This document shows positions 16,908-56,336 of a stretch of DNA of 64,000 nucleotides, in pieces. Location: positions 1 through 64,000 of the forward strand of contig NZ_LWSK01000014.1 in assembly GCF_001642955.1 (NCBI RefSeq), given 5' to 3'. Made by a program: the position numbers and the translations under genes. Position 1 is the stretch's first letter, and every line of letters starts with the position of its first letter. Source of the stretch: Rubripirellula obstinata. Lineage in GTDB: Bacteria; Planctomycetota; Planctomycetia; Pirellulales; Pirellulaceae. The notes under the pieces are model-generated. The model was given only the letters and a program-made list of their open reading frames with translations. It ran no database searches and was not told the origin of the DNA.

Positions 16908-17110
16908 CGGAACGATCTCTCGCTCGGGCGCAGTGAACTTATTTGCGCCATCCCAATCGCTTCATTCGGAAAGATTCCGAAAGTTGGTTCATTAAGAAGC
17001 TTGGCAGATTAGTTCGGCCACTACGGTAAGACCGTGCCTGCTGCTCGCCTTAGCGTTCCGGAAAACGATGCCGCGTGTCGAATCGCTCCACACAGCCTTC
17101 ATGCTCCCAA

Positions 17111-17219
17111 TTTTTTTGTCTTTAATTTTTTTGTCTAATCTTCACCAGAAGGCGTGGTGTGCTGTCTGGTTGAAACGCGACATTGGGAGGATTTAGACAA
17201 AAAAAATAGCGACAAAAGA
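17111..17219. repeat. T-rich inverted repeat (TTTTTTTGTCTTTAA family)
   Basis: Left arm TTTTTTTGTCTTTAATTTTT with TTGTCTAATC, right arm GATTTAGACAAAAAAAATAG with GACAAAAG. The central part CAGAAGGCGTGGTGTGCTG is shared with the three copies in 24318-25001. Confidence 0.85.
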
Positions 17220-17320
17220 TCGCGGTGGTCGCTGTGTCTTTGAGGCAATCGGCAGATAATTTCGTGCAAGTGTTAGTGGACGCACTAAGGAACTGTCCCT
17301 AACTAACTTCCCGGTTTTCC

Positions 17321-17518
17321 CGTAGCTGGTCCCGCCAGGGTTCAGTTCACTGCTAGTATTCCGCGTCACCTCAATTTTCGGGTAGCGGAACTCGCCAAGA
17401 GTTTCGGCTACGAGGGGGACGCCGAAAGTCTACGCGACTTCCGCTACCTCCTAACCGAAGATTGAGCTGACATGGACTGCTAGCTGTACCCGACTGAACC
17501 CTGGCGGGCCCAGCTACG
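17321..17518. repeat. CGTAGCTGGTCCCGCC hairpin split by an inserted element
   Basis: Left arm 17321-17347 and right arm 17491-17518 are complementary. The loop is occupied by the 122-bp element at 17357-17478 with GCTAG on both sides. The arms show compensatory-type changes relative to the other copies (GGTCCCGCC / GGCGGGCCC). Confidence 0.85.
17357..17478. mobile_element. 122-bp MITE-like palindromic element, copy 2, flanked by GCTAG direct repeats
   Basis: Sequence essentially identical to 10302-10423, same length. The flanking five bases are GCTAG at 17352-17356 and 17479-17483, unlike the ACTAG of copy 1. It is located inside the loop of another repeat family, direct evidence that it inserted there. 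Confidence 0.82.
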
Positions 17519-17558
17519 ATAGATTTCGCCAAAGACGGAACTTGTTTCAGGACAGTTC

Positions 17559-19784
17559 CTAACGCGATGCCATCGCGGCGATCGGCGATGCGTTGCGATA
17601 CCACTGCATCACGTCGTCGACCAGGATCTGGCCCACCATCCGCCGGCCAAGCGAAAAACGTACGGTGCCGGTTTGGCCACTACGCAGTTCGATGCCGCCA
17701 AGCAACTGATCAGCGGCTTGATCGGAACCGAACCTTGCTTCCGCGACGACACGCGGCTGAACCAACTTCCATTGTTCGTTGACATTCTTGGCCTGTGGAT
17801 TCGAGTACACCGACAACGGACCACCCAACGCACTTGCCATCGCCGGATGCGCCAGATCTCGGGTCGCACGAGGCTTCAAATGATCAAAACAGATCTCGTC
17901 GATCACACGGCCTTGTCCGCCGATCCATACGTCCGCCGAAAACTGATCTCGCGTCCGCAGCGTCACCGCATCGTCTTGACCAATCATCGCGACCAACTTG
18001 ATGCGATCCGGATCAGCGATAACGAACAATCGTTTGCCAGCCGTTACTAACGTTCCCAACTGATCCACCAAGTCAGACTGCATCACTGTTCCGCTAACTT
18101 GGCTTTGCACCAACAAGCCATCAATGCGGTTTTGTAATTCGCCGCGGCGTGTTTGCATGGCAAGTTCATTGGCTCGTTCGATTTCCAATTCCACCAACGC
18201 ACGCTCTCGACGAAGCACTCGTTGTCGATGGCGCGATTGGCTGATCTCTGTCCCCAAACGTTGCAAGTCGATTTCCAATTCTTTGTTTTCCAATCGACAA
18301 AGCACGTCGCCCACATCGACCGCCTGACCCGGCACCACCGATATCTCACGCACGAATCCGCGGACACTCGCACGAATTTCCGTCGGTTGGTCCAACGTCA
18401 CGACCATCGGTGCCATCACACGGCGCTGATAGGGAATGACCAGGACGCCAATCAACACAACCGACAATCCAAGGCAGATTCGTTTGAAGTACCAACGATT
18501 GATTCGCATGGGATCGTTCCAGTTTGAAAGAAAGCGAGCGAGCGGTTTTCCTGTCCAGAATCCGATCGCCACGATTGCCAACAGAATGCCCGCACCCCAG
18601 AACAAACCGGTCGCAGCCATGGCCAGCGAAACACAAATTAAAATCCGCCAAACGAATGCGGCGACCGCGTAAGCCGCAACTAACCCGACACGTCCTTCGG
18701 GCCAAGTCGGACGAGTCACGTTGGCACCAAACAAATACTTTTGCCGCACATACGACAACCAGCGAGTCGCATTGGTGGAAAGATTCGGCATCTCCAGATA
18801 GTCCGACAACATGTAATAGCCATCGAATCGCATCAGCGGATTTAGGTTAAACAAAACCGTCGTGAATGTTGCGGTGACAATCAAGTTACGAGCATGCATT
18901 TGGACCAGCGGGTCGGTCGAGTGCATCCAAACCCAAATGCCAACACTGGCAAGAACCGCTTCGACGATCATTCCAGCGGCGGCAACTAGAATTCGATGCC
19001 ACTTGTTTGGGAATGCCCAGGAACTGCTGACTTCGACGTACGGCAGCGGCATGAACAAGACCATCATCACGCCGGCTTCCCCCACGCGACCGCCCAACCA
19101 TCGACAAGCAACCGCGTGCCCAAGTTCGTGGACGCTTTTGACAATCAACCAAGTCGCGACCAACCACATCCAATTACCGCTGGCCAGCACATTTCGACTA
19201 GCCGCCCAAAACGAATTGAAATTCTCAACAACGGCCAAGCAAGTAATCGCAAACCACACCACACCGACAACCACGCCAATCAACATCAACCACTGATTCG
19301 CCAAACCGCGTTTCAGTAAACCTGCGATCGGGTTGACGAACCGCGAAGGATTCCCGAGCGGTATTTTTTGGAACATCGGATTAGCGGCACTGGCAATCTG
19401 CTGCTCGCGATCTTTTTGCTGCGACTGCGCGACCCGTGATCCCGACTGCGACGTCACCGTGTGGGCCAACCCCGATTCGACCAACCATCCGACCAGCGAT
19501 ATGGCATCGGATTCGTCCAGTGCATCGAGTCCATGCTTCGACGCCGTCGCGGACAAACATTCAGCGACCGTGGTTCGCCCATCAAGCAGCGACACAAACG
19601 TGTATTCAGCAACGCCCAACCGAGAGAATCGGCCCGAGGTGGGATCTTCAATCAGAAAACTAATCTGCCCCGAATCAATGTGCCTGGTAATTCGCAGATC
19701 GTCACGAATTTGCGGACACATCCCCATCACTTCGACCGTGATCGGGTCGGCTGCAAGCGAATCGTTTGGTGAAGGATGATTCAT
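17559..19784 (-). CDS. PqqD-like / site-2 protease (M50) / HlyD fusion protein
   Basis: 741 residues from the ATG at 19784 (a longer frame exists but starts inside the upstream gene). Residues about 20-108 look like a PqqD-type winged helix with ISFLIEDPTSGRFSRLG. Membrane helices follow, with HELGH (219-223) and NPLMRFDGYYMLSD (315-328), the zinc ligands of M50 intramembrane proteases. The C-terminal half (about 490-741) is an HlyD-type adaptor: a barrel half, an Arg/Glu-rich coiled coil (LQRLGTEISQSRHRQRVL) and a lipoyl-like half. It starts 16 nt after the stop of the adaptor upstream. PqqD domains bind precursor peptides in RiPP pathways, so peptide maturation linked to export is a reasonable inference. 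Confidence 0.85.
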   Translation of the reverse strand: MNHPSPNDSLAADPITVEVMGMCPQIRDDLRITRHIDSGQISFLIEDPTSGRFSRLGVAEYTFVSLLDGRTTVAECLSATASKHGLDALDESDAISLVGWLVESGLAHTVTSQSGSRVAQSQQKDREQQIASAANPMFQKIPLGNPSRFVNPIAGLLKRGLANQWLMLIGVVVGVVWFAITCLAVVENFNSFWAASRNVLASGNWMWLVATWLIVKSVHELGHAVACRWLGGRVGEAGVMMVLFMPLPYVEVSSSWAFPNKWHRILVAAAGMIVEAVLASVGIWVWMHSTDPLVQMHARNLIVTATFTTVLFNLNPLMRFDGYYMLSDYLEMPNLSTNATRWLSYVRQKYLFGANVTRPTWPEGRVGLVAAYAVAAFVWRILICVSLAMAATGLFWGAGILLAIVAIGFWTGKPLARFLSNWNDPMRINRWYFKRICLGLSVVLIGVLVIPYQRRVMAPMVVTLDQPTEIRASVRGFVREISVVPGQAVDVGDVLCRLENKELEIDLQRLGTEISQSRHRQRVLRRERALVELEIERANELAMQTRRGELQNRIDGLLVQSQVSGTVMQSDLVDQLGTLVTAGKRLFVIADPDRIKLVAMIGQDDAVTLRTRDQFSADVWIGGQGRVIDEICFDHLKPRATRDLAHPAMASALGGPLSVYSNPQAKNVNEQWKLVQPRVVAEARFGSDQAADQLLGGIELRSGQTGTVRFSLGRRMVGQILVDDVMQWYRNASPIAAMASR

Positions 19785-19800
19785 AATTGTCGGCCGTAAA

Positions 19801-21354
19801 CTACCACGGCATCCGCATGCAAACTTGTTCCCAAGCACGATGCAAGAACACCCAACCGATTGAATGTTTGGCACCACGAATCTTGGCACTGCCCTTCATC
19901 CCGGGCCGAAGTCTTCCGTCGGCATTGGCAAGAACACATTCGGCGACGAAAACGTTTTGATCGTCGCGAACTTCGCTTTGCGGCCAAATTTTTTCGATAA
20001 TGGCAACAAATGTTTCGTTACCAAAACCCGCAAACATCATTTCAACGTCGGTGCCTTCGCTGATATGAGAAACATCGTCACCGCGGACACTCAGTTCAAT
20101 CCGAAGTTCATCCAACGGCGAGATTTCATACAGCACTTGTCCTTGATCGACCGGAAAATTCTGTCTTCGATCCATGCTGCCTGACAAAACGATTCCCGAG
20201 ATCGGTGCCGTCAACGTCAGGTTCTCTTCTCGGTGACTTAGCAAATCGATTTGCGATTGCAGCCGTTGCATTTCCAATTCAGCTTGCATCGCATCGGTCG
20301 TTTTGTGCGCAGCCAAATGAGCGTCATGTTGCTTGGCGGCGCGTCGATGCTGGGCAACCAACCCGGCCAATTCCCAGCGGACTTCACGCCCGTCCATCGA
20401 TGCGACCGTTTGATCCGCCGTGACCACATCACCGGGTTCCACCAATGTTGTTTGCAGCAAACCGTCGTGCGGTGCGACACAGAATTGACGCTCCACCGGT
20501 TCAATGACCGATGGCGCAGCGACTTGATAGTCGATGGGAATCCAGGCCGCCGCAAACGCCGCGACGCACGCGCCCAACACGACCGTTCGCTTCGCCGCCG
20601 AACATGATTGATACCAACGAACCAACTTCGTTAACCGCGTGCCTTCGGATCGTTCGCAACTCATTAAAACGTCGGCGATGGGCGAAGCCGATGCAGCGAC
20701 AAAGTCCAACGACCTTGGTTGTAACGCCAACTGACCACGAGATCCAATCACCAGCAAGCTACCAACCGTGATTCCATGCTTGGTCACCAAAGGAACCGAC
20801 ACGACCTCGCGATCCCGACCCGCAAGTTGCTTGTGTGAAAGCATCGATGACGTGTCTTCTTTACTCGCGGCCGGATCACGATTGGAAAGCGGATAGACGC
20901 CCAACGATTCGCGCGTGATCGCTTCATCCAAACACGACTGATACAGCAGCACTTCTTCGGACTGGTTGTCCTGATTTGCGACACCGGAGATTGAAACAAC
21001 GCTTTGCCGCGAACGATTGCCCTGCCATCCCAGAACCACTCGAACGGAATTCAAATGAGCATGCATTTGTGAGGTCAATTCATGACAGGCCGATGCAAAC
21101 CGATCGCAGGCCGCCAAAGTCTGCAACAGTTCAACCAACCAGCCAGCGTTCTGAACCTGTCCCGTTGCATCAGCCAAACGCAGCCGCATCTGAATCAATG
21201 AATCGTTTGCCGCTTTGGTGTCATCGTGTGATTGAGCGGTTTGATGAGACGCGTGAACGCGCCGTCCGGCAACCGGATTTCCCGACACCGTCGTGAAGGT
21301 TGATGGTGTGCCCAGCACCGGTGGATTTACGGGATTTGCGTTTCTGGATGTCAT
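19801..21354 (-). CDS. HlyD-type adaptor with large N-terminal (possibly GAF-like) domain
   Basis: 517 residues. The N-terminal 220 or so residues are soluble and contain VSVPLVTKHGITVGSLLVIG, a strand pattern typical of GAF domains. One membrane helix follows (about 258-276, TVVLGACVAAFAAAWIPI), then an HlyD barrel (VAPHDGLLQTTLVEPGDVV), a short coiled coil and the second half ending PGMKGSAKIRGAK. The N-terminus would be cytosolic and might sense a ligand. The start overlaps the stop of the upstream adaptor in an ATGA, showing tight coupling. Confidence 0.82.
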   Translation of the reverse strand: MTSRNANPVNPPVLGTPSTFTTVSGNPVAGRRVHASHQTAQSHDDTKAANDSLIQMRLRLADATGQVQNAGWLVELLQTLAACDRFASACHELTSQMHAHLNSVRVVLGWQGNRSRQSVVSISGVANQDNQSEEVLLYQSCLDEAITRESLGVYPLSNRDPAASKEDTSSMLSHKQLAGRDREVVSVPLVTKHGITVGSLLVIGSRGQLALQPRSLDFVAASASPIADVLMSCERSEGTRLTKLVRWYQSCSAAKRTVVLGACVAAFAAAWIPIDYQVAAPSVIEPVERQFCVAPHDGLLQTTLVEPGDVVTADQTVASMDGREVRWELAGLVAQHRRAAKQHDAHLAAHKTTDAMQAELEMQRLQSQIDLLSHREENLTLTAPISGIVLSGSMDRRQNFPVDQGQVLYEISPLDELRIELSVRGDDVSHISEGTDVEMMFAGFGNETFVAIIEKIWPQSEVRDDQNVFVAECVLANADGRLRPGMKGSAKIRGAKHSIGWVFLHRAWEQVCMRMPW

Positions 21355-22256
21355 CGTTTCAACCTTCCGTTTTCAAAGGCGGGGGCATTTGAAATTTGAG
21401 TGTGCGGGGAATCGAAACGGCACCGCAAGCCACTGCGTAGTTGTCGATCTTTGTTCTCGATCAAAACATCCATTCGGACTCGTCCGCTATCGGCCTGAGT
21501 CACGGCAGCGATGTATTCCACTTGTCCAGCGACCCTGCGTTCACCCGATGCACCCGTGCGTTCCATCATGACGTCGACCGATTCGCCCGCTCGGTACAAA
21601 TCAGCGACTGCCGTAGAAACAAAAAATGTGCATCGCAATTGGTCCAGCACCACTACCGTTGCAACGTGTGGATCTGCGGTGGAAACATACTCGCCCGGTT
21701 CACGCAGCACATCGATGACTAAGCCGGATACCTGACCGCGAACACATCGTTGTTCGATGCGTCCATCAATTTCAACCAAACGCAGAGCAGCAAGTTTTTG
21801 TTTTTCGATCGCCGCATCTCGGTTCAGTTCGGCGATCTTTGCATCCGCTTCGCTACGTCTGGCTTCTTCCCGGCTGACTGCGCCTTTGCCGAGCAACTTC
21901 AAGACTTGTTCGTGACGATTGCGTTTGATTTCATATTCGATGTTCAGCGAATCGATTTGCGTGGTGCTTTCTGCTTCCAGTCTTGCGATTTCACGTGACG
22001 CTTCCAAAACTTTGGAATCCAACCGCATCACGATCGTATCGTTTCGAACGTGATCTCCACGTTTGACGCCAACTTCATCGATTCGCCCTGGTTCTGACGC
22101 AGACAAATGAATCGTTTGAACAGGTTCAGCAAACGCATCAAACGAATCGGCGTTTGCGTTGCCGCCGCTGATGATGGTGCCAGCAAAAATAGTGACGGCG
22201 AAAAACGTAACAGCAAGAGCCGTGGTCCTTGCCAAGTTGATGAAACGAACGTGCAT
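21351..22256 (-). CDS. HlyD/RND-type periplasmic adaptor protein
   Basis: About 301 residues from the ATG at 22256, which gives the signal peptide MHVRFINLARTTALAVTFFA. The lipoyl-like half IDEVGVKRGDHVRNDTIVMRL, a coiled coil (REIARLEAESTTQIDSL and following), and the second half with VRGQVSGLVIDVLREPGEYV are in membrane-fusion-protein order. It lies 4 nt after the SecA-like gene and overlaps the next adaptor by 4 nt, so it is the second gene of the operon. Confidence 0.85.
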   Translation of the reverse strand: MHVRFINLARTTALAVTFFAVTIFAGTIISGGNANADSFDAFAEPVQTIHLSASEPGRIDEVGVKRGDHVRNDTIVMRLDSKVLEASREIARLEAESTTQIDSLNIEYEIKRNRHEQVLKLLGKGAVSREEARRSEADAKIAELNRDAAIEKQKLAALRLVEIDGRIEQRCVRGQVSGLVIDVLREPGEYVSTADPHVATVVVLDQLRCTFFVSTAVADLYRAGESVDVMMERTGASGERRVAGQVEYIAAVTQADSGRVRMDVLIENKDRQLRSGLRCRFDSPHTQISNAPAFENGRLKR

Positions 22257-22260
22257 GGTT

Positions 22261-24243
22261 CTACCCGGTTTTGGCGAGTGTGTTTTGAATGTTTTCGAGC
22301 CACGCGTCACGTGACACCATTTGGCGGCGTTGCTGAAAGCGTTGGTTGCCGAGGCTGTGTTGCAACCGACTGATCGCCCTGTCCAAGGCTTGGTCGTGAA
22401 CGCCAGCCCGCGATTGAATTGACGAGAGACGCTCGGCCAATTTGGGATCGTGATCCTGGATCAGCTTGTCGTCGGGGCAGGCTAGAAATTGAACCGAACC
22501 TGGATCGCCTTGTCGGGCGGCGCGGCCGGCCAGTTGGCGGTCCACTCGAGACGAATCTTGGTGTTCGGTGGCGATCACGTGCAGTCCGCCAGCATGTGTT
22601 GCTTGTTCGCCGACGGCAATGTCTGTCCCGCGACCCGCCATGTTGGTCGCGATCGTAATGCAACCGGGGTCGCCAGCTCGCGCGATGATATCAGCCTCGG
22701 CTTCGTCCTGAACTCCGTTCAAGACACGAATGTCCGAATCGGAAAAATGGTTCGCGACCGCGACACTTTCCAAGATCGATCGTGTTCCGATCAATACTGG
22801 CTGTCCGTTCGATTGACGCGTTCGGGCATCGGTGGTGATGTATCGCAGTTTGTCTTCGTGGTTGGCGAAGTACTTTGACGGCACCGTCGTTCGCTGGCAT
22901 GGGCGGTGAGTTGGAATCACGCTGACGTCCAAACTGTAGAACTCGCGAAAGTCTTCCGAGCTATCGCCCACCGTTCCGGTCAATCCGCAAAGCCGGTCGT
23001 AATACTGGCAATAACGCTGACGCGTGATCCGGGCTTCGGTCAGGGTGTCGGCCGACGGTGTTAAACCACAGGCAATCTCGACCGCCTGGTGCAGTCCGCC
23101 TTGCCACCGGCGTTCTTCGTGAATCCGTCCCGTATTGGCATCGACGATCATCACTTCGCCGGCTTGAACGACGTAGTCAACATCACGAACCAATCCGATG
23201 CGAGCTTTCAATGCGTTTTGAACAAGAACCGTCCAACTGCGTGACAGTTTTCGTTTGGGCAGTGATTCAAACGCTTTTCGTGCGAGCGTTTTGCCATGCT
23301 CGGTCACCACGATCACTCCGCCTGATTCGATTTTGTAGCCCTCGCCTTCAATCAACGAATCTGCAAACCGATCCGCGATCGCGTAGAGCTCTGGATCGGT
23401 TTGCGGACCTGGTTCGCGGCCACCCAACACCAACGGAGTGTTGGCTTCATCGATTAGAACGCTGTCGGCTTCGTCGATGATGCCGAAGGCGCAGGGCCGT
23501 TGAACCGTTTGCGTTGTGGTGAACCGTTGGCCGCGAAGTTGTTCAGTAAAACGTTCGCCCAGATGCCGTGCATCACTTTTGCGACGCTGGATTTGGTCTC
23601 GCAAATAGTCGAAACCAAACTCATAACCAGGTCCGTAAGTAACGTCGCAACGATAGGCGTCTCGTTTGGCATCATTCTCATGGTCGGTGTCCAGATGAGC
23701 GGTGGTTAGTCCGAGTAGGCGGAATGCGGGGCGAGTGGTTTCGTAATCACGCCGCGAAAGGTAGTCGTTGGTGGTTGCAACATGCACGCCGCGACCATGA
23801 AGAGCAAACAAGAACGCCGGGATCGCAGTGATCAGCGTTTTGCCTTCCCCGGTCTGCACTTCGGCGATCGTCCCCTGGGCCAGTTTGTAACCGGCCAACA
23901 ATTGGACATCGTAGTACGTCATGCCCGTCACCCGTCGGACCGCCTCGCTGATCAATGCAATTGCATCGATGATGGCGGCGTGTTTCACGACTGAGGAATC
24001 AAAACTGAATCCATCCGATTGCAGTGCATTCGTTTCGCCGACCAGAGCGTTGGTGGTCAGCTTCGACAGCGACACCATACGTTCACGCACGTCCTGCACG
24101 AGAGTTTTCTCCCGTGAGGCGAGCGAAGATGACGAAAAGAAATGGTTGAACAAAAGACGGAATGCACCGGCGGAAACGAATGACACAGTTCTTCCGATGT
24201 CATCGACACTGCGGGTAGCCAGCGGTGATCGCGCCCCCACCAA
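22261..24243 (-). CDS. SecA-like ATPase lacking the C-terminal third (SecA paralogue)
   Basis: 660 residues against roughly 900 for housekeeping SecA. NBD1 has FDVQLL-like YYDVQLLAGYKL, Walker A VQTGEGKTL (129-137) and Walker B IIDEAD (255-260). A short preprotein-binding region follows, then GEVMIVDANTGR, GLTGTVG, and NBD2 with IATNMAGRGTDI and QLAGRAARQGDPGS. It ends shortly after NBD2, within what would be the start of the scaffold helix (ISRLQHSLGNQRFQQRRQM). The wing domain and the C-terminal zinc tail are missing. The TTG start at 24243 is the first in frame; the protein's N-terminus is uncertain. First gene of an operon of adaptors, implying a specialised export motor. Confidence 0.88.
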   Translation of the reverse strand: MVGARSPLATRSVDDIGRTVSFVSAGAFRLLFNHFFSSSSLASREKTLVQDVRERMVSLSKLTTNALVGETNALQSDGFSFDSSVVKHAAIIDAIALISEAVRRVTGMTYYDVQLLAGYKLAQGTIAEVQTGEGKTLITAIPAFLFALHGRGVHVATTNDYLSRRDYETTRPAFRLLGLTTAHLDTDHENDAKRDAYRCDVTYGPGYEFGFDYLRDQIQRRKSDARHLGERFTEQLRGQRFTTTQTVQRPCAFGIIDEADSVLIDEANTPLVLGGREPGPQTDPELYAIADRFADSLIEGEGYKIESGGVIVVTEHGKTLARKAFESLPKRKLSRSWTVLVQNALKARIGLVRDVDYVVQAGEVMIVDANTGRIHEERRWQGGLHQAVEIACGLTPSADTLTEARITRQRYCQYYDRLCGLTGTVGDSSEDFREFYSLDVSVIPTHRPCQRTTVPSKYFANHEDKLRYITTDARTRQSNGQPVLIGTRSILESVAVANHFSDSDIRVLNGVQDEAEADIIARAGDPGCITIATNMAGRGTDIAVGEQATHAGGLHVIATEHQDSSRVDRQLAGRAARQGDPGSVQFLACPDDKLIQDHDPKLAERLSSIQSRAGVHDQALDRAISRLQHSLGNQRFQQRRQMVSRDAWLENIQNTLAKTG

Positions 24244-29049: not shown

Positions 29050-29234
29050 GAGTAGCTCTGGGGTTCAAGACGAATATCAGGTTGTGTGGAAAGTCAAATG
29101 CCCGCCGCGTGCTTTCGACCCTTTTCACGCTAGTTGCTCTCTGCGACCCTTTCAACTGCTGGTTTCGTAAGAATCCCACCAAACCTAACGCCACCAAACA
29201 TCAGCCCCCCAAACATCAGCCCCCAGTTCGCCGC

Positions 29235-30335
29235 GTGAAAATAGCCTGCCTGATCCACTCGCTAGACGGAGGCGGGGCCGAACGAGTCATGGCGGGCCTG
29301 GCGTCTCGCTTTGCCAATCGCGGTCACGACGTCACGTTGATCACGCTGGGAAACGGGCACGGTGATCGACACGAACTAAGCCCCAATGTGTCGCGAATCG
29401 ATCTAGATCTAATGCGGGGAAGCACCGGTTGGATGTCCGCGTTAAAGAACGTATCGAAACGAGTCCAGGCGATCCGCCAGGCCACGCAATCGGTATCGCC
29501 ACACGTGCTGCTGTCGTTCTGCGACCGTACCAACGTCTTGGCAGGGTTATCCGCCGACTCAAAAATTCCGGTCGTGTTGAGCGAACGCAGTGACCCGAAT
29601 TTCCAGACGCTTCCCTTTGCATGGCGATTGCTTCGACGATACTCCTACCGACGTTCGGGCGCGATCGTTGTGCAAACCGATTCAGCCGCAAGCTTCTTTG
29701 ACGGTTACCAAGTCCCCTGTCACGTCATTCCATCAGCCGTCGATCCACCGCCAATCACGATTACTGCGGAAACGATTTCAGAAAGCAGGCAAGTGATTGC
29801 AATCGGTCGTTTCGCACCTGAAAAAGGTTTTGAGCGTTTGCTGGATGCCTTTGCGATCATCAACCGCAACCATCCACAGTGGAAACTTTGCATCCTGGGT
29901 GACGGTCCCCAGCGTGGATCGATGCAGGAACAAATCAAGCGATTGAAAATCAGCGGAGCCGTTTCGATGCCCGGCTGGGTCAATCCCGTGTGGTCGCAGC
30001 TCGCCGAGTCGGCGGTGTTTGTTTTGCCCAGTCACTACGAAGGCTTCCCGTCGGCGTTGTTGGAAGCGATGGCAGTCGGCGTGCCGTCGATTGCCTTACA
30101 AAATCAAGCTGGCTCGCGAGCGATCATTGATTCGGGCGTCAATGGAATTTTGGCGGACGATAACGCAGCGTCAATCGCCAAGGCTATCGATCATTTGATC
30201 CAGGATCCGGGACTTCGCAGCCAATTCAGTCAGGCTGGCCAGCAGGTCGTCAACACATTTAGTTGGGAATCGATGGTCGGCCAATACGAAACCGTGTTGC
30301 GGTCGGTTGTGAATTCGCCAGATGCGTTAGAATAA
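29235..30335 (+). CDS. Glycosyltransferase family 4 (GT-B fold)
   Basis: About 366 residues from the GTG at 29235, which puts VKIACLIHSLDGGGAERVMA at the N-terminus as in most GT4 enzymes. An upstream TTG at 29082 would add 51 residues including a duplicated KHQPP. The donor-binding C-terminal domain has IAIGRFAPEKGFERLLDAF, LGDGPQR, and the E(x7)E motif in PSHYEGFPSALLEAMAVG. It transfers a sugar from a nucleotide donor, probably in surface glycan or lipid glycosylation. It stands alone, with no glycan cluster around it. Confidence 0.85.
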   Translation: MKIACLIHSLDGGGAERVMAGLASRFANRGHDVTLITLGNGHGDRHELSPNVSRIDLDLMRGSTGWMSALKNVSKRVQAIRQATQSVSPHVLLSFCDRTNVLAGLSADSKIPVVLSERSDPNFQTLPFAWRLLRRYSYRRSGAIVVQTDSAASFFDGYQVPCHVIPSAVDPPPITITAETISESRQVIAIGRFAPEKGFERLLDAFAIINRNHPQWKLCILGDGPQRGSMQEQIKRLKISGAVSMPGWVNPVWSQLAESAVFVLPSHYEGFPSALLEAMAVGVPSIALQNQAGSRAIIDSGVNGILADDNAASIAKAIDHLIQDPGLRSQFSQAGQQVVNTFSWESMVGQYETVLRSVVNSPDALE

Positions 30336-30341
30336 AACAAC

Positions 30342-30401
30342 AGTCGCCTTTCGCTCCGCTAAAGTACGTCAGAGCACGCTTTCGCGCAGCGAAAGGCGAC
30401 T
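30342..30401. repeat. Hairpin AGTCGCCTTTCGCTCCGCT, possible terminator
   Basis: AGTCGCCTTTCGCTCCGC and GCGCAGCGAAAGGCGACT pair across about 24 nt containing AAAGTACG and a CGCTTT. It follows the GT4 stop by 6 nt and precedes the next gene by 28 nt. Confidence 0.75.
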
Positions 30402-30429: not shown

Positions 30430-31668
30430 ATGGATCTTTCTAACATCGTGTATCGCTGCCAACGTATCGTCGTCGTCTTTCTACTGAGTTCTGTTTTTCT
30501 AACCAGTTCTTCGTCAGCACAAGGGCTGTCCGTCGATCTAACCACCAACACTGGTGCAACTCAGACCGGTACGCTCGCCGCGGTGACCGAAACCGGAATC
30601 GAAATCGATCAATCTGGGGAAGCGGTTTCGATCGACAACACCGAATTGATGTCGATGGAATTCAAGTCAGTCGAGAAACGTTCGTCTCCTTCGACAAGAG
30701 TGCTGTTGGTCAACGGTTCACAATTGGTCGTCGATGAAGTGCAAATCGATCGCAACCAGATCACCATCGAGCCTCGCCGGCAAGCCAGTTTGCAATTGCC
30801 GCTCAGTCAGGTCAAAGCGATCCGCTTCCGACGACCTTCCGCCGTTACCGACCCGGTGTGGTTGGGCATGTTGGAAACGCCTTCGCGCGGCGACCGAATG
30901 GTGATTCGTCGCAGCAATGATCGTTTGGATCCGACCGATGGAATCATCAACGGGATTGCGGATTCTAAGGTTGATTTTGACTTGGACGGCGACGCGATCT
31001 CCGCGCCCATCGATCGTTTGGAAGGCCTGATCTTTGGTGGGACTGACCCGACTCAAGGCTCATCCGGCGTCGTCATTTCCGATGCTTACGGATCCACTTG
31101 GGCGGCCGACGCATTGTTGCCAGTCCGTTTGGATCAACCGGCGGCCGATCAAGGGATGCGTTTCCAATTGCCTGGCAATGTGTTTCATACCATTCCGATT
31201 GACCTCGTTCGCAGCGTTCGCTGGTCCAGCGGTCTGGTAATGCTGGCCGAAGCCAAACCGGCCGAATTGAATGTTCAAACCGAGTTTGCAATCGACTGGA
31301 AGGATGACGCGTCAAAGAAATGGTTTGGCCCGCTGGCGGTAAAGGCGAACAAAGCATCTGCCGCGCAGCCCAACCAGGACCTGATGCTCTGCGGCGGCAG
31401 CGAAGTTGAATACCGAGTCGAAGAAGGGTTCCGTTTGTTGAGCGGTTCCGTGCGGCGAGCTAGCGAAATCAAAAACGCCAGCAGCGTGACGGTGCGAATC
31501 AAATTGGATGACAAATTGGTCTGGGAAAATGATTTACCCAACGCCGACTCGCTAGGTTTTGAATTAGAACTCGGTGAAGCTCGTCGAATCAAAATCGAAA
31601 TCGACTCGGGTGACGATGGCGACCTAGGCGCGATGGTACGAATGGTCCGGCCAAGGTTTGTGAAGTAG
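30430..31668 (+). CDS. Secreted protein with C-terminal NPCBM-like domain
   Basis: 412 residues. Signal peptide CQRIVVVFLLSSVFLTSSSSAQG (about 10-32). A beta-rich middle contains repeated strand patterns (IDNTELMSMEFKSVEKR, PLSQVKAIRFRRP). The C-terminus (about 270-412) reads like an NPCBM/NEW2-type carbohydrate-binding module: FAIDWKDDASKKWFGPLAVKA and FELELGEARRIKIEIDSG. It lies 11 nt upstream of the S1C gene, forming an operon with three protease-like proteins, so it may be a surface substrate or scaffold for them. Confidence 0.7.
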   Translation: MDLSNIVYRCQRIVVVFLLSSVFLTSSSSAQGLSVDLTTNTGATQTGTLAAVTETGIEIDQSGEAVSIDNTELMSMEFKSVEKRSSPSTRVLLVNGSQLVVDEVQIDRNQITIEPRRQASLQLPLSQVKAIRFRRPSAVTDPVWLGMLETPSRGDRMVIRRSNDRLDPTDGIINGIADSKVDFDLDGDAISAPIDRLEGLIFGGTDPTQGSSGVVISDAYGSTWAADALLPVRLDQPAADQGMRFQLPGNVFHTIPIDLVRSVRWSSGLVMLAEAKPAELNVQTEFAIDWKDDASKKWFGPLAVKANKASAAQPNQDLMLCGGSEVEYRVEEGFRLLSGSVRRASEIKNASSVTVRIKLDDKLVWENDLPNADSLGFELELGEARRIKIEIDSGDDGDLGAMVRMVRPRFVK

Positions 31669-31679
31669 TTTTTCAAATC

Positions 31680-33512
31680 ATGAAAGCAAGTTTCTTGAGA
31701 ACCAGTTTTATGCGACGCGGAAAATTGTTGACGCTATCCTTGTCGCTTGCGATGTTGATGTCGTCGCCGACGTTACGGGGTGCCGAACCGCTGACTCTTT
31801 CCAGCACCATTGAAAAAGCCGAGCAGCGACGTGTCGAAGCGATCGCGCGAGCGACCAAGTCGGCGGTCAGCGTGTTTGTTCCGGGCGGTGGCGGCGGAGG
31901 CAGTGGTGTTTTGATTTCGCCCGATGGCTACGCACTGACCAATTTTCACGTCACCAGTCCCGCGGGTTCGGCGATGCGATGCGGGCTTAGCGACGGCAAC
32001 ATTTACGACGCGGTCATCGTCGGCATCGATCCGGTCGGCGACTTGGCCATGATTCGTTTGCTGGGGCTGGACGGAAAACCGCGGTCGGACTTTCCGTATG
32101 CAGAACTCGGCAACAGTTTGACTGCCGAGGCTGGTGATTGGTGCATGGTGATCGGTAACCCGTTCTTGTTGGCGACCAACCTGCAGCCCACCGTGACTTG
32201 GGGCATCCTTAGCGGGGTCCGACGGTATCAGTATCCGTCGGGAACGTTGCTGGAATACGGTGACTGTTTACAAACAGACGCGTCGGTGAATCCTGGCAAT
32301 TCAGGCGGTCCGATCTACGACGCCGACGGCAAGTTGCTTGGGATCGTCGGCCGTTGTTCGTTTGAAAAACGTGGCCGAGTCAACGTGGGTGTGGGCTACG
32401 CGATTTCGATCAATCAAGCCGTCAATTTCCTGGGGTATCTGCATAGCGGTCGGATCGTCGACCACGCAACGCTGGGTGCGACGGTGGCGACCGATCAAGA
32501 CGATGGTTCGGTTCGCGTGACCAACATCCTGGAATCCAGCGATGCGTATCGGCGAGGTCTACGCTATGCATCGGAGGTTTTGTCGGTTGATGGTCGGATC
32601 GTTCAGTCGGCGAACGACCTGCAGAAAGTCTTGGCAACCATTCCGGCGGGTTGGCGAGTAAAGATGAGCTATCGCGAGGACGGCAAGACGGTCGACACGC
32701 TGGTGCGACTTCGCAGCGTTCATTTGCAAGACGAGTTGCTGGAAAAAATGTCCGGCGCGTTGCCTCCGCCGCCACCGATTGAAAAGGAAAAGGAAAAGGA
32801 AAAGGAAGACGACAGCGATGATGAAGAAGATTCAGATGAAGTTGAACCCGACGCAGCGGCCGACGACAAGATTCCGCCTGCGGTGCGAAAGCAGTTGATC
32901 GAGCGGAAGGGTTATGCCAACTATTTCTTCAACCAAAAACAACAAACACGTTTTATCGATTCGCTACGGTCGCAGTTTCCTGGTCAAGCTGATCAGTCAA
33001 ATCCGGCTTGGGAGATCGAGGGCAACACCGTGGAAGCGAAGCCTCGTCCCGTTAAAATTCGCGTTGGCCCAGACGCGATCGCGATGATGGTGGGCGAGAC
33101 GCCGATGACGGCTGAGGATCGTGGCGAATTGTACGACGCGATCAGCCAGCGCAGCATTGGCGGCATCGTGTCGGCGCTGGAGGGATGGCGTCGAATGCTG
33201 GCCGATGGACCTAAGAAGTTTGGCGAGAGTTTTTATCTGGGCACGATGCCGCTGGGTGGTCAGCGACCGCTGCGAGATTGTATGGTCGGTATCGACGGAG
33301 AAATTGAGGTTCGTTTCCTGAGCCACCCGGATACCGGAGTGGTCGAGGTGGTCGAAGCCTTCGCCGATCGTGACGAAGATCCGGCTGAGTTGTGGATCCT
33401 GCGAGATGAGGTTTCGTCAGACCAACCGCCACAGATGTTGGACCTGCGATACGGAACTGATTCGGTGCTGAAGATTAAAATCGACAGTTGGAAAAAAGTG
33501 GAGGCGAAGTGA
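31680..33512 (+). CDS. S1C serine protease with PDZ and acidic linker (active member)
   Basis: 610 residues. Signal segment RGKLLTLSLSLAMLMSSP (about 13-30). The full triad is readable: His90 in GYALTNFHV, Asp121 in GDLAMIRL, Ser208 in VNPGNSGGPIYD. A PDZ domain follows (about 280-345, ILESSDAYRRGLRYASEV), then a Lys/Glu-Asp-rich linker (about 367-395) and a C-terminal domain with no family I recognise. It is the intact member of a three-gene series. It overlaps the next gene in a TGATG. Confidence 0.85.
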   Translation: MKASFLRTSFMRRGKLLTLSLSLAMLMSSPTLRGAEPLTLSSTIEKAEQRRVEAIARATKSAVSVFVPGGGGGGSGVLISPDGYALTNFHVTSPAGSAMRCGLSDGNIYDAVIVGIDPVGDLAMIRLLGLDGKPRSDFPYAELGNSLTAEAGDWCMVIGNPFLLATNLQPTVTWGILSGVRRYQYPSGTLLEYGDCLQTDASVNPGNSGGPIYDADGKLLGIVGRCSFEKRGRVNVGVGYAISINQAVNFLGYLHSGRIVDHATLGATVATDQDDGSVRVTNILESSDAYRRGLRYASEVLSVDGRIVQSANDLQKVLATIPAGWRVKMSYREDGKTVDTLVRLRSVHLQDELLEKMSGALPPPPPIEKEKEKEKEDDSDDEEDSDEVEPDAAADDKIPPAVRKQLIERKGYANYFFNQKQQTRFIDSLRSQFPGQADQSNPAWEIEGNTVEAKPRPVKIRVGPDAIAMMVGETPMTAEDRGELYDAISQRSIGGIVSALEGWRRMLADGPKKFGESFYLGTMPLGGQRPLRDCMVGIDGEIEVRFLSHPDTGVVEVVEAFADRDEDPAELWILRDEVSSDQPPQMLDLRYGTDSVLKIKIDSWKKVEAK

Positions 33513-34579
33513 TGGTACACGAGCAACCTCGAAGTCAGTGCATCCCCAGTCAGTGCGTACCCAGACACAGCACCCCCAGTCGCAGCCTGCGATTGACTAC
33601 TTTCTTGCTGTTTGTCTTCCTGGCCAACACCGCATCCGCACAAACGTCGGCCCACGACTGGGCTAGGACCGCTCAATCCAAAGTCGTCAAAGTCTACGGC
33701 GCGGGTGGCATGAAAGGGCTGGAAGCTTACCAAAGCGGGTTCTTGGTTTCGCCCGAAGGCCACATTGCGACGGCTTGGAGTTACGTGCTGGACGTGGAGC
33801 CGATCGTTTTGCTGGACGACGGCCGGCGGTTTGAGGCGGAGATCATTCACTTTGAACCTTCGCTTGAAATCGCAGTGCTTAAGATCGATGCATCGGCGCT
33901 GCCCTACTTTGAATTGCCAAAAATTCGCGAAGTTCAGTGGGGTGATCCCGTGTTGGCGATCAGTAACCTGTTCAACATCGCAACGGGTGACGAAGCGGCC
34001 AGCATCATGCAGGGTCGAGTCGCATCGATCGCTTCGTTGGACGCCCGAAGCGGCACGCTGAAAACGCCTTACCGTGGCGAAGTCCTGGTGCTGGATCTGG
34101 TTGCCAACAATCCCGGTGCCGCTGGCGGAGCGGTGGTGTCGGCCGATGGGAAATTGGCGGGCATGCTGGGCAAAGAACTGCGAGATTCGGCAACCGGCGT
34201 GTGGCTGAACTACGCTTTGCCAGCCGACGTGTTTCGTAAAACGATCGGCGACATCATCGCGGGACGAGCGACGTCATCGGCGGCAGCCAAAGAACCGCAA
34301 CTGCCTCGCGATCGGTCGCACAATCTGCAAACGCTGGGGCTAGTCCTGGTTCCCGATGTGTTAGAAACGACGCCCGCGTTTGTTGACCGTGTCGTCACCG
34401 GCTCGCCTGCCGAAGAACAAAATCTGCGACCCGATGATTTGATTCTGTTGGTGTCCGGACAGCGAACCGAGAATCAACGTCTACTTAAAAAACGGCTCAG
34501 ATCGATCGATCGTCGCGACGACGTGACCGTCACGATTCAGCGAGACAACGACATCCTGACAGTGGTGCTAAAACCATGA
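33512..34579 (+). CDS. S1C-like protein with PDZ, all three triad residues substituted
   Basis: 355 residues from the ATG at 33512, giving signal segment LRLTTFLLFVFLANTASAQ. Aligned by eye with the upstream protease: His position Ser90 (IATAWSYV), Asp position Glu119 (SLEIAVLKID), Ser position Ala204 (NNPGAAGGAV). It should not hydrolyse peptides by the usual mechanism. The PDZ domain (TGSPAEEQNLRPDDLIL) at the C-terminus is intact, so peptide binding may be its role. Overlaps the next gene by 4 nt (ATGA). Confidence 0.8.
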   Translation: MVHEQPRSQCIPSQCVPRHSTPSRSLRLTTFLLFVFLANTASAQTSAHDWARTAQSKVVKVYGAGGMKGLEAYQSGFLVSPEGHIATAWSYVLDVEPIVLLDDGRRFEAEIIHFEPSLEIAVLKIDASALPYFELPKIREVQWGDPVLAISNLFNIATGDEAASIMQGRVASIASLDARSGTLKTPYRGEVLVLDLVANNPGAAGGAVVSADGKLAGMLGKELRDSATGVWLNYALPADVFRKTIGDIIAGRATSSAAAKEPQLPRDRSHNLQTLGLVLVPDVLETTPAFVDRVVTGSPAEEQNLRPDDLILLVSGQRTENQRLLKKRLRSIDRRDDVTVTIQRDNDILTVVLKP

Positions 34580-36567
34580 ACGGTATTTTTACTTCCCGAA
34601 TTGCACATTCCTCGTTGATAGGTTTAGTGCTGTTCGCATTGCCGGCTAGTACTAGTGCGGACGACATCCAGTATCGTCAAGAAATGGCGGCCGCGGTTCG
34701 TTTGGCAACCCAACGCGTGCTGCCTTCGGTCGTCACGGTCGAGGTGATCGGAACCTCGGGAACCGTCAAGGGCGAGGTCGCACAGGACGCGCCGACTTGT
34801 GGTGTGATCGTGGGCCAAGACGGGAACGCGGTCGAGATTCTGGCGTCCAACATTGTGCTTCGTGGAACCGCAGCAACAATCCTAGTGGTGCTGCCCAACG
34901 GTTCGCGACATGCCGCATCGGTCGTTGCCAAGGACAACCATCGCGACTTAGTGTTGCTAAAGATTGAAACCGACGAACAGGTTTCCGCGGTCGATCTACC
35001 GGACCAAAGTCAACTTCCGATCGGTTCAACCACGATTGCGATCGGTCGCTACGGTGAAAATCAGTCGCCGATGATCAGCACGGGAATTTTGAGTGCGACC
35101 GGACGATTGGATGGCATCGCGATCCAAACCGACGCGCGTGTTTCGGCGGCAATGTACGGTGGTCCGCTGATTGATTTGTACGGGAACGTTTTGGGAATCC
35201 TGATTCCCGCAGTCGCGGCGGGCGGCGCGGAAGATTCGACAAGCTGGTACGACTCGGGGATTGCGTTCGCCATTCCGGCTGACGTGATCGCGAAAAAGTT
35301 GCAACGCCTTCGCGACGGGCAAGACATCAACAAAGGTCTGATCGGAATTGTCGCTGGAAGTGCGGACGCCAATGAAGCGGATACGACCATTGCCGCCGTG
35401 CGAACTCGTTCGCCAGCCGAAGCCGCTGGCATCAAAGCAGGCGACACGGTGAAGTCCGTGGGCGGCCAACTGGTTCGCCGACATCAAGAAATCAAACAAG
35501 CGCTCGGGAGTCTGGACGCTGGCGAGTCGGTTGCGATCGTTGTCACTCGAGACGACCAGGAAATGACGTTCGACGTCACGCTGGCCGATTCGATTCCTCC
35601 GCTAGATCCACAACGGCTCGGGATCGTTGCATCGCAATCCGACGCAAACGTCGTTGTCGATGCCACGGTTGCCGGTTCGCCGTCGGATGACGTTCTTCTT
35701 GCGGGCGACGTGATCAAGAAATTTGGCGGCAATGATGTTGGCAATGTCGATCGCTTGCGACGTCAATTGATTACGGCTGAATCGGATCAGTCGATCGAAT
35801 TGAAAGTCATGCGAGATGGAAAGCTGATCACGAAAACGCTGACGCCCCAGTCGATCGGCGGGCCGGTTCAAGAAGGTTATCCGGATGCGTGGTCATCAGA
35901 TGAATTGACCGATGATTCGATGAAGGAATTGACGAAGAACTGGGCAATTGCCGAGATCAAACTGCCCGATGCCGCCAACGTCGCCGCGATTCTGGCTCCC
36001 AAAGCGAGTAAGCCTTCCAAGGATGATCAACCGTCGGCTCAGGATCTTGGGTTGCTTGTCTTGCTGTTGGAACCTGGTGAAAAGGATCCTCAAAAGGTTT
36101 TAGAATCGTGGAAGTTTGATGCCGCCAGCAGTGGTGTTGTGATGGTTGCGATTGCTTCGGAAGATGCGTCGCGATGGCAGGCAAAGGAAGTTCAGGTTAT
36201 CGCCAATTTCGCCGCTGCAGCGATGAAGAAGGCACCGATTCACTCGACCGCGGTGGCAGTAGCGTCATCCGGTTCGCTGGCCAAAGGAAAAGTGTCCGCA
36301 GCGGATTCGATGGCGATCGCGGTCGCGATTTCGCAAAGCGAAACGTTCTTTGGTGTCGCATTTGGCACCGACACTCGGCCGCCAGCGGTGCGGCTGCGCG
36401 AAAACGAGCCGGCAACTTCATTGCAAATCCTGATGCCGGTCAAAGACCCCATCGATCTGCCCGAATGGATTCCGGCGCTGAAGCGAGCCGGCTACCCGGT
36501 CGTTCTTGGCGGCGACGTTGACCAGCAGGTATTGTTGCGATGGTGCCGTTTGTTGCAGGCGATTTAG
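34576..36567 (+). CDS. S1C-like protein with two PDZ domains and degenerate triad
   Basis: 663 residues. Signal segment IAHSSLIGLVLFALPAS. In the protease fold the His position is Ile93 (EILASNIVL), Asp124 is kept (RDLVLLKI) and the Ser position is Tyr194 (AAMYGGPL). Two PDZ domains follow (about 260-335, TRSPAEAAGIKAGDTV; about 345-425, VAGSPSDDVLLAGDVI). The C-terminal 200 residues (about 460-663) are an unassigned alpha/beta domain. The upstream neighbours suggest a complex of one protease plus two inactive relatives. Confidence 0.8.
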   Translation: MNGIFTSRIAHSSLIGLVLFALPASTSADDIQYRQEMAAAVRLATQRVLPSVVTVEVIGTSGTVKGEVAQDAPTCGVIVGQDGNAVEILASNIVLRGTAATILVVLPNGSRHAASVVAKDNHRDLVLLKIETDEQVSAVDLPDQSQLPIGSTTIAIGRYGENQSPMISTGILSATGRLDGIAIQTDARVSAAMYGGPLIDLYGNVLGILIPAVAAGGAEDSTSWYDSGIAFAIPADVIAKKLQRLRDGQDINKGLIGIVAGSADANEADTTIAAVRTRSPAEAAGIKAGDTVKSVGGQLVRRHQEIKQALGSLDAGESVAIVVTRDDQEMTFDVTLADSIPPLDPQRLGIVASQSDANVVVDATVAGSPSDDVLLAGDVIKKFGGNDVGNVDRLRRQLITAESDQSIELKVMRDGKLITKTLTPQSIGGPVQEGYPDAWSSDELTDDSMKELTKNWAIAEIKLPDAANVAAILAPKASKPSKDDQPSAQDLGLLVLLLEPGEKDPQKVLESWKFDAASSGVVMVAIASEDASRWQAKEVQVIANFAAAAMKKAPIHSTAVAVASSGSLAKGKVSAADSMAIAVAISQSETFFGVAFGTDTRPPAVRLRENEPATSLQILMPVKDPIDLPEWIPALKRAGYPVVLGGDVDQQVLLRWCRLLQAI

Positions 36568-50322: not shown

Positions 50323-50630
50323 CAATTGTTCTGAGGACGAGGCGTCACGCGGTCGGAAAGATCACGAACCGACTTGTCGAGCGATTGTTCGTGAGCGCTG
50401 AGCCGCTGGAAGATCAGGTTAAGTGTCCCAGCGAGTTCTTCAGCCTGCGTGTTTCCCTGTCGCGTTGGTTCACTTGAATTCGCCAACTCGGCTTCGATCG
50501 CTCGAACTTTTTCTTGAATTTGCTTATCGCCACCCTGCTCGTTTAGCACTAGGAACAATGCGGCAGTACTAGACAATGTAGAGACTAATGCGAGCACTAA
50601 AATCAGGGTGAGTAGCCACTTGGTGTTCAT
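50322..50630 (-). CDS. Small membrane protein with periplasmic coiled coil
   Basis: 102 residues from the ATG at 50630, which overlaps the stop of the ATPase gene (ATGA). One helix (about 3-30, KWLLTLILVLALVSTLSSTA) then a charged helical tail with heptad-like spacing (IQEKVRAIEAELANS; HEQSLDKSVRDLSDRV). A short spacer or anchor component. Confidence 0.75.
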   Translation of the reverse strand: MNTKWLLTLILVLALVSTLSSTAALFLVLNEQGGDKQIQEKVRAIEAELANSSEPTRQGNTQAEELAGTLNLIFQRLSAHEQSLDKSVRDLSDRVTPRPQNN

Positions 50631-55167: not shown

Positions 55168-56336
55168 GGTGTGCCCCCTTCTGAGCCGAAGCTACCGCCA
55201 AATTGAGTTGCAAAATCCTTCAGTCCATTCTCCGCGGGCGTCACTGGGGTCGGATCGCCACCATTGAATAGTCGCGGCGTACAAGTCTTCACAGTCACAT
55301 CAACGCCGTTGAACTTGTCTTTGACCGTTTGTATTTGCTGAAGCATCGAACCAATGCTGTTGTCTTCGCCATCGGTGAGGACAATTGCTGTCACCGGCCG
55401 GTCGTGGCGAGCAATTTCTTCTGACGCGACATCAATTGCGGATTCGAGCTTCGTGCCGCCGCTCATTTGAAGCGTATCCAAGAAGCCGTTAAGCCGGTCA
55501 GCGGTTTTTTGATCCACCACCTGAAGATCTCCAAGTGCGCTGGTGGCGTTGTCGTTGTACGCAATGACATTGATGTAGTGCGAAGTGTAAGTGTTCTCCC
55601 ACCTCGACAGCAATTGCTTCGCCTCGTCGCGTACCTGTTGCATGTATGGGTCCATGCTGCTGCTCTGGTCGATAATGATGACCAAGCTCTTCGTCTCAAC
55701 GGGAATTCCAATGAATTCCCCCCCAGAGTCGCAACCGCGAAGCCACAACAACAGAAACAAAAGAGGGATAAAGTACCACCACCAAGGCGGACGCCACTTC
55801 TTCTTGAGCGACAGCTCTTTCGCCCAAGCAAGCAAACCGTTCATCCCGGTCGCTGGGTCGAACTGCTTAGGATGTTCAACTCGAAACCCTGACTTATGAA
55901 TAACTTTGATAAAATTCGCGTGAGTCGCTTTCGCAGCAGTAGACTCATCAACGAAAGCGTCGTCGCATGTCAGGCCGAACTTGATTCGATCGACCTTGTT
56001 TTTGTCTCGTGAACGAACACAGTCTCGTGACACGACCACGCTTTCCATGCCCGGTGAACTCCGGAGCTGCATCAGCGACGAAACCACGTGCGACATGTCC
56101 CACTGAACTTGCTCCCGGGGGCGAGAGGAATCATCCTCCGACGTGGTGTCCTGGAATCGGACGCCGCTATTCTTAACGACTTTCTTCCGCGCCGATTCGT
56201 TTAGCTGGTAATGGTCGCCAACCCAGGCCGACCGATCAAGCGGGAAGAACAACTCTGCATCGAAGTTTGGTTTCTGCATGGCCGTGGCAAAACGGTCAAC
56301 GTCAATCCCCGTCTTGTCATTTTCGGCTGTTGGCAT
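55164..56336 (-). CDS. Membrane-anchored von Willebrand A protein
   Basis: 390 residues. An unassigned soluble N-terminal region (1-180), one membrane helix (about 185-200, WWWYFIPLLFLLLWLRG), and a C-terminal vWA domain with an intact MIDAS: DQSSSM (223-228), GGTKLESA and LTDGED. vWA domains bind ligands in a metal-dependent manner. First gene of the five-gene operon, with the following GTPase overlapping by ATGA. ATG at 56336. Confidence 0.85.
   Translation of the reverse strand: MPTAENDKTGIDVDRFATAMQKPNFDAELFFPLDRSAWVGDHYQLNESARKKVVKNSGVRFQDTTSEDDSSRPREQVQWDMSHVVSSLMQLRSSPGMESVVVSRDCVRSRDKNKVDRIKFGLTCDDAFVDESTAAKATHANFIKVIHKSGFRVEHPKQFDPATGMNGLLAWAKELSLKKKWRPPWWWYFIPLLFLLLWLRGCDSGGEFIGIPVETKSLVIIIDQSSSMDPYMQQVRDEAKQLLSRWENTYTSHYINVIAYNDNATSALGDLQVVDQKTADRLNGFLDTLQMSGGTKLESAIDVASEEIARHDRPVTAIVLTDGEDNSIGSMLQQIQTVKDKFNGVDVTVKTCTPRLFNGGDPTPVTPAENGLKDFATQFGGSFGSEGGTP

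Follow-up and report, generated by a model that had tools for sequence, protein, structure and literature searches.

Why should a bacterium encode one HtrA-type protease in overlapping genes with two relatives that lack the catalytic triad? The question is raised by a block of four genes, g1 to g4, at positions 30430-36567 of a stretch of Rubripirellula obstinata DNA (assembly GCF_001642955.1, contig NZ_LWSK01000014.1, positions 1-64,000; this whole stretch of 64,000 nucleotides is called the window). A preliminary description, made from the sequence, had proposed that g2 is an active protease, that g3 and g4 lost catalysis in parallel while retaining PDZ domains, and that the three form a hetero-oligomer in which the inactive chains present substrates or regulate the protease. 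Our data indicate that g3 and g4 are, as judged from sequence comparison, old pseudoproteases kept by purifying selection beside one active-type protease, and that a hetero-oligomer of g2, g3 and g4 is likely. The features of the block are as follows.

30430-31668, plus strand: g1, NPCBM-like protein; open reading frame (ORF) of 412 amino acids (aa), N-terminus signal-peptide-like by eye
31680-33512, plus strand: g2, active-type HtrA protease with H90/D121/S208; ORF of 610 aa with an additional C-terminal domain
31899-32345, plus strand: trypsin-like domain of g2, aa 74-222; Trypsin_2, 102 bits
32472-32705, plus strand: PDZ domain of g2, aa 265-342; PDZ_2, 25.3 bits, under the cut-off of 27; fold matches cover aa 41-353
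32922-33500, plus strand: C-terminal alpha/beta domain of g2, aa 415-607; folded confidently in the AlphaFold2 (AF2) model
33510-33514, plus strand: TGATG overlap of the g2 stop (TGA, 33510-33512) and the g3 start (ATG, 33512)
33512-34579, plus strand: g3, predicted pseudoprotease with S90/E119/A204; ORF of 355 aa, trypsin-like domain and PDZ
33734-34165, plus strand: trypsin-like domain of g3, aa 75-218; Trypsin_2, 67 bits; oxyanion glycine retained
34376-34567, plus strand: PDZ domain of g3, aa 289-352; PDZ_2, 34.1 bits
34576-34579, plus strand: ATGA overlap of the g3 stop (TGA, 34577-34579) and the g4 start (ATG, 34576)
34576-36567, plus strand: g4, predicted pseudoprotease with I93/D124/Y194; ORF of 663 aa, trypsin-like domain, two PDZ and a C-terminal alpha/beta-hydrolase-like domain
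34801-35199, plus strand: trypsin-like domain of g4, aa 76-208; Trypsin_2, 68 bits; Tyr in the place of Ser, oxyanion glycine gone
35368-35841, plus strand: PDZ1 and PDZ2 of g4, about aa 265-422; two PDZ_2 stretches that align over DegP PDZ1-PDZ2
35941-36552, plus strand: C-terminal alpha/beta-hydrolase-like domain of g4, aa 456-659; from the secondary structure of the AF2 model

All four genes lie on the plus strand, and 11 bases separate g1 from g2. The ORF calls and the computed triad places agreed exactly with the frames, the two overlaps and the three triad states of the preliminary description. Its statement on the PDZ domains also stands: g3 is above the Pfam cut-off for Trypsin_2, PDZ_2 and PDZ (32.6 bits for the last), g4 has two PDZ stretches, and g2 falls slightly below the cut-off. 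All three proteins thus have the HtrA architecture of a trypsin-like domain followed by PDZ. The Do-family model TIGR02037 (NCBIfam) was the best model for g2, yet its score of 175.8 bits was below the cut-off of 416, as were those of g3 (83.7 bits) and g4 (157.8 bits). The AF2 models of g2 (predicted local distance difference test score, pLDDT, 85.5; predicted template modelling score, pTM, 0.83) and g4 (pLDDT 91.1, pTM 0.85) have the HtrA fold. Searches with whole g2 and whole g4 gave exclusively HtrA-type folds among the best 50 matches each, and the g2 model matched HtrA folds with a best Z of 30.1 and a root-mean-square deviation of 3.8 across 279 residues. The NPCBM match of g1 was weak in the window (22.8 bits against a cut-off of 23.9) and reached 65.9 bits in a relative (L141).

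The catalytic places were read in 101 loci, namely 100 fetched g3-centred regions and the window; three all-gap g2 rows were dropped from the counts (second matches in L052 and L078, a shortened one in L073). All 97 g2 rows that could be read had Ser and Asp; 96 of them also had His, and the other had a gap there. No g3 row had Ser in the nucleophile place (0/101; A 65, Q 13, P 9, Y 5, G 3, T 2, F 2, D 1, E 1), and the His place was occupied by Ser in 87 rows and by His in one. The nucleophile was also absent from all 98 g4 rows (Y 97, V 1), in which the His place was aromatic in 86 (F 70, Y 9, W 7, I 6, L 3, A 2, H 1). Asp D124 of the g4 in the window is not conserved; 4 of the 98 rows had Asp there. 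A second set of 80 named loci, the best 80 of 537 found with a g4 motif, gave a similar result: 77 g3 rows lacked Ser (2 gapped), and Tyr occupied the g4 place in 80 of 81 rows (1 gapped). The two paralogues differ at the oxyanion glycine, place 193 in chymotrypsin numbering, which was Gly in 101/101 g3 rows and non-glycine in 98/98 g4 rows.

A shifted alignment could produce such losses, and this objection was checked with separate profile alignments. S90/E119/A204 of g3 fall on the catalytic His, Asp and Ser of DegQ (1.7e-37), and I93/D124/Y194 of g4 fall on those of DegP (1.2e-53, over trypsin-PDZ1-PDZ2). The motifs are therefore unshifted, no relative of g3 or g4 read in the two sets has the nucleophile, and the preliminary description withstood both tests that could have overturned it. 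Judged by these residues, g3 and g4 are HtrA-fold pseudoproteases and not peptidases, and g2 is the sole chain of the three with a predicted complete active site. Among Protein Data Bank entries, 3pv3 (DegQ S193A) matches the g3 profile best. With its oxyanion glycine kept and its Ser mostly replaced by Ala, g3 resembles such laboratory-inactivated variants and could still hold a substrate-like strand. The active site of g4 may instead be plugged by aromatic residues.

Both losses appear to be old. A tree of 104 protease domains, with 34 rows per paralogue from many families of the phylum, placed g2, g3 and g4 each on one side of a branch, with Shimodaira-Hasegawa-like approximate likelihood ratio test values of 97, 99 and 99. 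Because each paralogue is one clade across distant families, the losses would predate the divergence of these families. The outgroup of this tree is thin (two of the seven other HtrA loci of the same genome) and leaves the branching order of g2, g3 and g4 unfixed; given the different replacements and the separate clades, parallel loss in g3 and g4 is plausible. For selection, 14 pairs from 16 shared loci were picked by g2 similarity, one of which had saturated dS (synonymous divergence). In the other 13 close pairs, the Nei-Gojobori ratio of nonsynonymous to synonymous divergence (dN/dS) was at most 0.19 for g2, g3 and g4, with g4 tending slightly above g2. YDSGI and Tyr-Gly-Gly were invariant in 71 g4 rows (alignment A2). 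The set described as one active-type protease with two triad-less paralogues is thus made of old clades under constraint, and the idea that g3 and g4 are functionless duplicates in decay, to which their lost catalytic residues might point, is rejected by the conservation of these clades across distant families, the low dN/dS and the invariant motifs.

A search for g3 at a threshold of 1e-20 gave matches in 177 of the 196 genomes of the order. The record titles of the best 80 of 537 g4-motif loci named planctomycete taxa in 79 cases and just 'bacterium' in one (L199), and the closest named relatives among these 80 belong to the Rhodopirellula/Rubripirellula lineage. Relatives on plasmids are distant: all 85 had less than 60% identity, and for five among the matches listed it was about 29%.

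The three genes are near-constant neighbours. The order g2-g3-g4 on the same strand was found in 97 of the 101 g3-seeded loci; of the exceptions, L071 and L123 lie at contig ends, and L110 and L113 have genes elsewhere. The same order was found in 73 of the 80 g4-seeded loci, and the seven others lacked g2 (six start at a contig end; L189 is unexplained). Because the order recurs from both g3 and g4 seeds, the arrangement is not due to chance. Of the loci holding g2-g3-g4, 84 of the 97 seeded on g3 and 65 of the 73 seeded on g4 also had a g1 relative. The NPCBM-like gene is a conserved part of the block.

In 7 of the 101 loci (L083, L084, L085, L128, L129, L135 and L138), g2 and g3 form a single reading frame, and the same fusion occurs in 1 of the 80 g4-seeded loci (L236). 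When only well-supported branches were trusted on a tree of 101 g2 rows, the fusion state required at least four gains or losses; L236 was included for being fused, L124, L133 and L138 are long branches, and the direction of gain versus loss is not fixed.

The genes also tend to disappear together. Of the 19 genomes of the order without g3 at 1e-20, two (G067 and G191) carry g4 at a contig start, and in the other 17 the g4 matches reached at most 208 bits, against 514-691 in four g4-bearing genomes. In three of these 17 (G065, G162 and G175), the upstream genes lie on a contig ending before g2. The search for g2 at 1e-90 covered 14 of the 17, the less complete G065, G074 and G085 being excluded. 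With G162 and G175 set aside, the 12 other genomes of these 14 lacked g2, g3, g4 and the upstream gene U3 (see below) at the orthologue level, and their U3 matches were at most 193 bits, against 491-805 in six genomes with clear U3. In G300 and G282 the genes are scattered, yet g2, g3 and g4 are all retained. These patterns argue for g2, g3 and g4 being one functional unit, and fusion in several lineages together with joint retention or loss favours a joint complex.

Separately, at L060 (G001), g2 and g3 share one frame with a lone TAG between them, which may be a near-fusion or a recent split.

In relatives the block often adjoins further genes, which the preliminary description, made from the window, could not show. 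Three upstream families on the same strand as g1, defined as single-linkage BLAST clusters and named U1, U2 and U3, were common to 57, 60 and 52 of the 101 loci. When the regions were extended, an 11-gene unit emerged in the order MoxR AAA+, DUF58, BatA/von Willebrand factor A (VWA), VWA2, U3, U2, U1, g1, g2, g3, g4, complete in 7 of 19 extended regions (L139, L140, L141, L143, L150, L153 and L154). There g3 was identified by a separate reading of the triad places, the scan having given a weak g2 or g4 match. VWA2 is a working label for a gene with no Pfam or NCBIfam match. In L146, g1 and g2 are separated by MoxR-DUF58; L155, L156 and L157 are without adjacent upstream genes, most of these genes are missing or lie apart in L144 and L151, and several other extended regions are interrupted by the region end. 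In the genome of the window itself, U3-U2-U1 lie on a different contig (L266). In its ancestral state the block was probably part of such a MoxR/VWA cluster, from which it would have become detached in the Rhodopirellula/Rubripirellula lineage. The whole arrangement, with an intact HtrA, two long-dead paralogues kept by selection and often an ATP-driven MoxR gene cluster alongside, suggests a proteolytic machine in which the inactive members retain or guide the targets.

Both g4 and g2 also carry extra C-terminal domains. In the g4 model, an alpha/beta domain, which the preliminary description does not mention, follows trypsin-PDZ-PDZ at aa 456-659. Pfam matches to alpha/beta hydrolases were weak and confined to a minority of g4 relatives (best Peptidase_S9, 2.1e-5; the most frequent such model in 8 of 71 members at E of 0.01 or below), and the g4 of the window had none. 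The nucleophile place of the G-x-S-x-G elbow held no Ser in any of 40 ungapped rows (Q 16, E 10, G 4, R 4, A 3, K 2, D 1); this count leaves out 31 of the 71 rows with gaps or an insertion, including the g4 of the window, whose insertion makes the elbow not placeable. The domain looks like a degenerate alpha/beta hydrolase, and if it is one, g4 would be doubly degenerate. Residues 415-607 of g2 had no Pfam match at E of 1 in a scan of the whole protein, in which the domain was not searched separately.

We propose that g2, g3 and g4 form a mixed HtrA oligomer in which the dead subunits handle the substrate and which works with MoxR/VWA proteins, and we give this a probability of about 60%. The three would be orthologous lineages of a cell-envelope HtrA machine in Planctomycetota, their export being suggested by the N-terminal sequences. 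In this machine g2 would be the cutting subunit. The g3 protein would serve as a natural counterpart of a Ser-to-Ala trap, its nucleophile gone and its oxyanion glycine kept, and may hold a strand uncut. The g4 protein might act as scaffold and, by way of its two PDZ domains and the degenerate alpha/beta-hydrolase-like domain that many relatives carry, as docking unit. The mixed oligomer, in the simplest case 1:1:1, would replace the usual HtrA homotrimer; g1 may help to position it by sugar or wall binding; and the MoxR AAA+/VWA proteins, whose genes lie upstream in many relatives, could remodel or deliver clients, presumably envelope proteins. From the patterns described above we infer that the three chains assemble, in what ratio they do so, which of them traps and which docks, and that MoxR is coupled to them. 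The most specific form, a 1:1:1 hetero-trimer widespread in planctomycetes, made of active chain, open-site trap and plugged scaffold, with one cutting site per ring beside two subunits that handle substrate and with service by MoxR/VWA, is tentative and we consider it rather doubtful as it stands.

Several observations weigh against this proposal. The set is patchy in the phylum, where g3 was found in 46 and not found in 248 of 294 sampled genomes at 1e-20, with a single-sequence query. Fusion and gene order would also fit a shared pathway without a complex. Six distant g4 proteins (L117, L122, L125, L129, L133 and L138; alignment A1) are without PDZ2 and the C-terminal domain, and therefore neither is essential to the ancestral role. 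U1-U3 occur in just 52-60 of the 101 loci, some of which end early. In the lineage to which the window belongs the linkage to MoxR does not hold, so it is not obligatory. Finally, g3 and g4 may be chaperones that work on their own.

Among the other explanations, regulation survives best. The g3 and g4 proteins could be regulators of g2, either activators like MamO or dominant-negative brakes, and not presenters of substrate. This overlaps with the mixed oligomer, as it needs contact with g2, and it has a sizeable chance of being right, if short of even. MamO activates MamE-dependent proteolysis, according to the text available (PMC4794232), and the oxyanion glycine kept in g3 would suit such a role. 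However, g3 and g4 have no special likeness to MamO: they scored 45.3 and 38.7 bits with the MamO family model, far below its cut-off of 800, and the general HtrA model gave both higher scores. The computed data do not separate a regulator from a presenter.

A role as autonomous envelope chaperones or adaptors in the g2 pathway, binding unfolded or C-terminal peptides with no stable mixed oligomer, seems unlikely to us. The retained trypsin-like and PDZ domains, the low dN/dS and the unlinked genes of G300 and G282 would all be in keeping with it, but the repeated g2-g3 fusion, the near-constant adjacency and the joint loss fit direct contact better. Very improbable is a MoxR-vWA biological-conflict system with inactive trypsin-like decoys, as in VMAP ternary systems. 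MoxR and VWA genes do adjoin the block, and trypsin domains in the effector position of those systems are nearly all inactive, in the text available (PMC7159879). The block nevertheless has a housekeeping look, being one orthologous set in most genomes of the order, of HtrA type with PDZ, and with N-termini that are signal-peptide-like by eye.

A second pair of active-type and dead HtrA genes lies in the window at 5736-7998 on the minus strand. Its intact-triad gene (6760-7998) overlaps the partner at ATGAATGA. The dead gene has lost His, kept Asp and changed Ser to Cys (CGG), and has a PDZ between the barrel and the CGG loop. Relatives were found in 23 of 57 genomes of the order, and CGG was invariant in 20 aligned locus rows, the window's own included. 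At 16 of the 20 loci, a relative of the intact partner is near, its triad not having been checked there, and four further loci have a single long frame that matches the partner best and may be fusions.

Directly upstream of g1, at 30342-30401, is the inverted repeat AGTCGCCTTTCGCTCCGC, whose second arm has one mismatch. Its 18-mer has 119 copies in the genome, against 0 for the reversed pattern, and in places two copies, inverted to one another, form a pair with about 42 bases between them, like families of repetitive extragenic palindromes or miniature inverted-repeat transposable elements (REP/MITE). The gene at 29082-30335 is presumably a glycosyltransferase, a label that comes from reading its sequence and not from a search. 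On the minus strand, 14850-24243 encodes two HlyD-like proteins, one protein that matches both M50 and HlyD, a SecA-like protein and an outer-membrane efflux protein, and 50627-56336 has three genes, for a VWA protein, a protein with a sub-threshold dynamin match and one with a weak SrfB match.

Judged by titles and the starts of abstracts, we recognised among the papers listed neither a MoxR operon with a trio of HtrA and pseudo-HtrA genes, nor planctomycete HtrA pseudoproteases or a link between MoxR and HtrA. The main text of the P. limnophila essential-gene paper, as available, has no HtrA, serine protease, MoxR, DUF58, trypsin or PDZ (PMC10632474). In R. baltica, one htrA gene (RB12752) is induced by cold shock, in the text available (PMC2754498); it is not linked here to this block. 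The set is kept through most of the order and was found in other classes too, and it is tied to a MoxR/VWA cluster. It is thus a natural case for a gene-by-gene test of dead subunits, and a lead to the function of the planctomycete MoxR gene cluster.

In their trypsin-like domain and PDZ, g2, g3 and g4 are similar to DegP, DegQ and DegS, the HtrA proteases of MEROPS S1C. Known HtrA/Deg members are homo-oligomers with an intact triad, whereas here two of three chains are without one. The plant proteins Deg5 and Deg8 were among the best 50 structural matches each of g2 and g4; they are reported as a hetero-complex, in which both are active-type. In MoxR AAA+/VWA couples (NorQ/NorD, RavA/ViaA and the Bat operons), the genes are encoded together, as are MoxR, DUF58 and BatA-like VWA in relatives of this block, and NorQD remodels its target enzyme, in the text available (PMC9976466). 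The closest known system is MamE/MamO, going by the available text (PMC4794232): like the block, it has an active HtrA and a catalytically degenerate relative in one gene cluster. In it, MamE-dependent proteolysis is promoted by the catalytically dead partner, and the paper makes a case for selection to pair active with inactive proteases. Place 193 is a non-glycine in MamO, as it is in g4; g3 differs, its Gly being kept. The pairing of active and inactive HtrA is thus already described in magnetotactic bacteria. Here, the set has two distinct pseudoproteases for each active-type gene, is widespread in one order, with occurrences in other classes of the phylum, and comes with extra C-terminal domains in many members and with MoxR/VWA neighbours.

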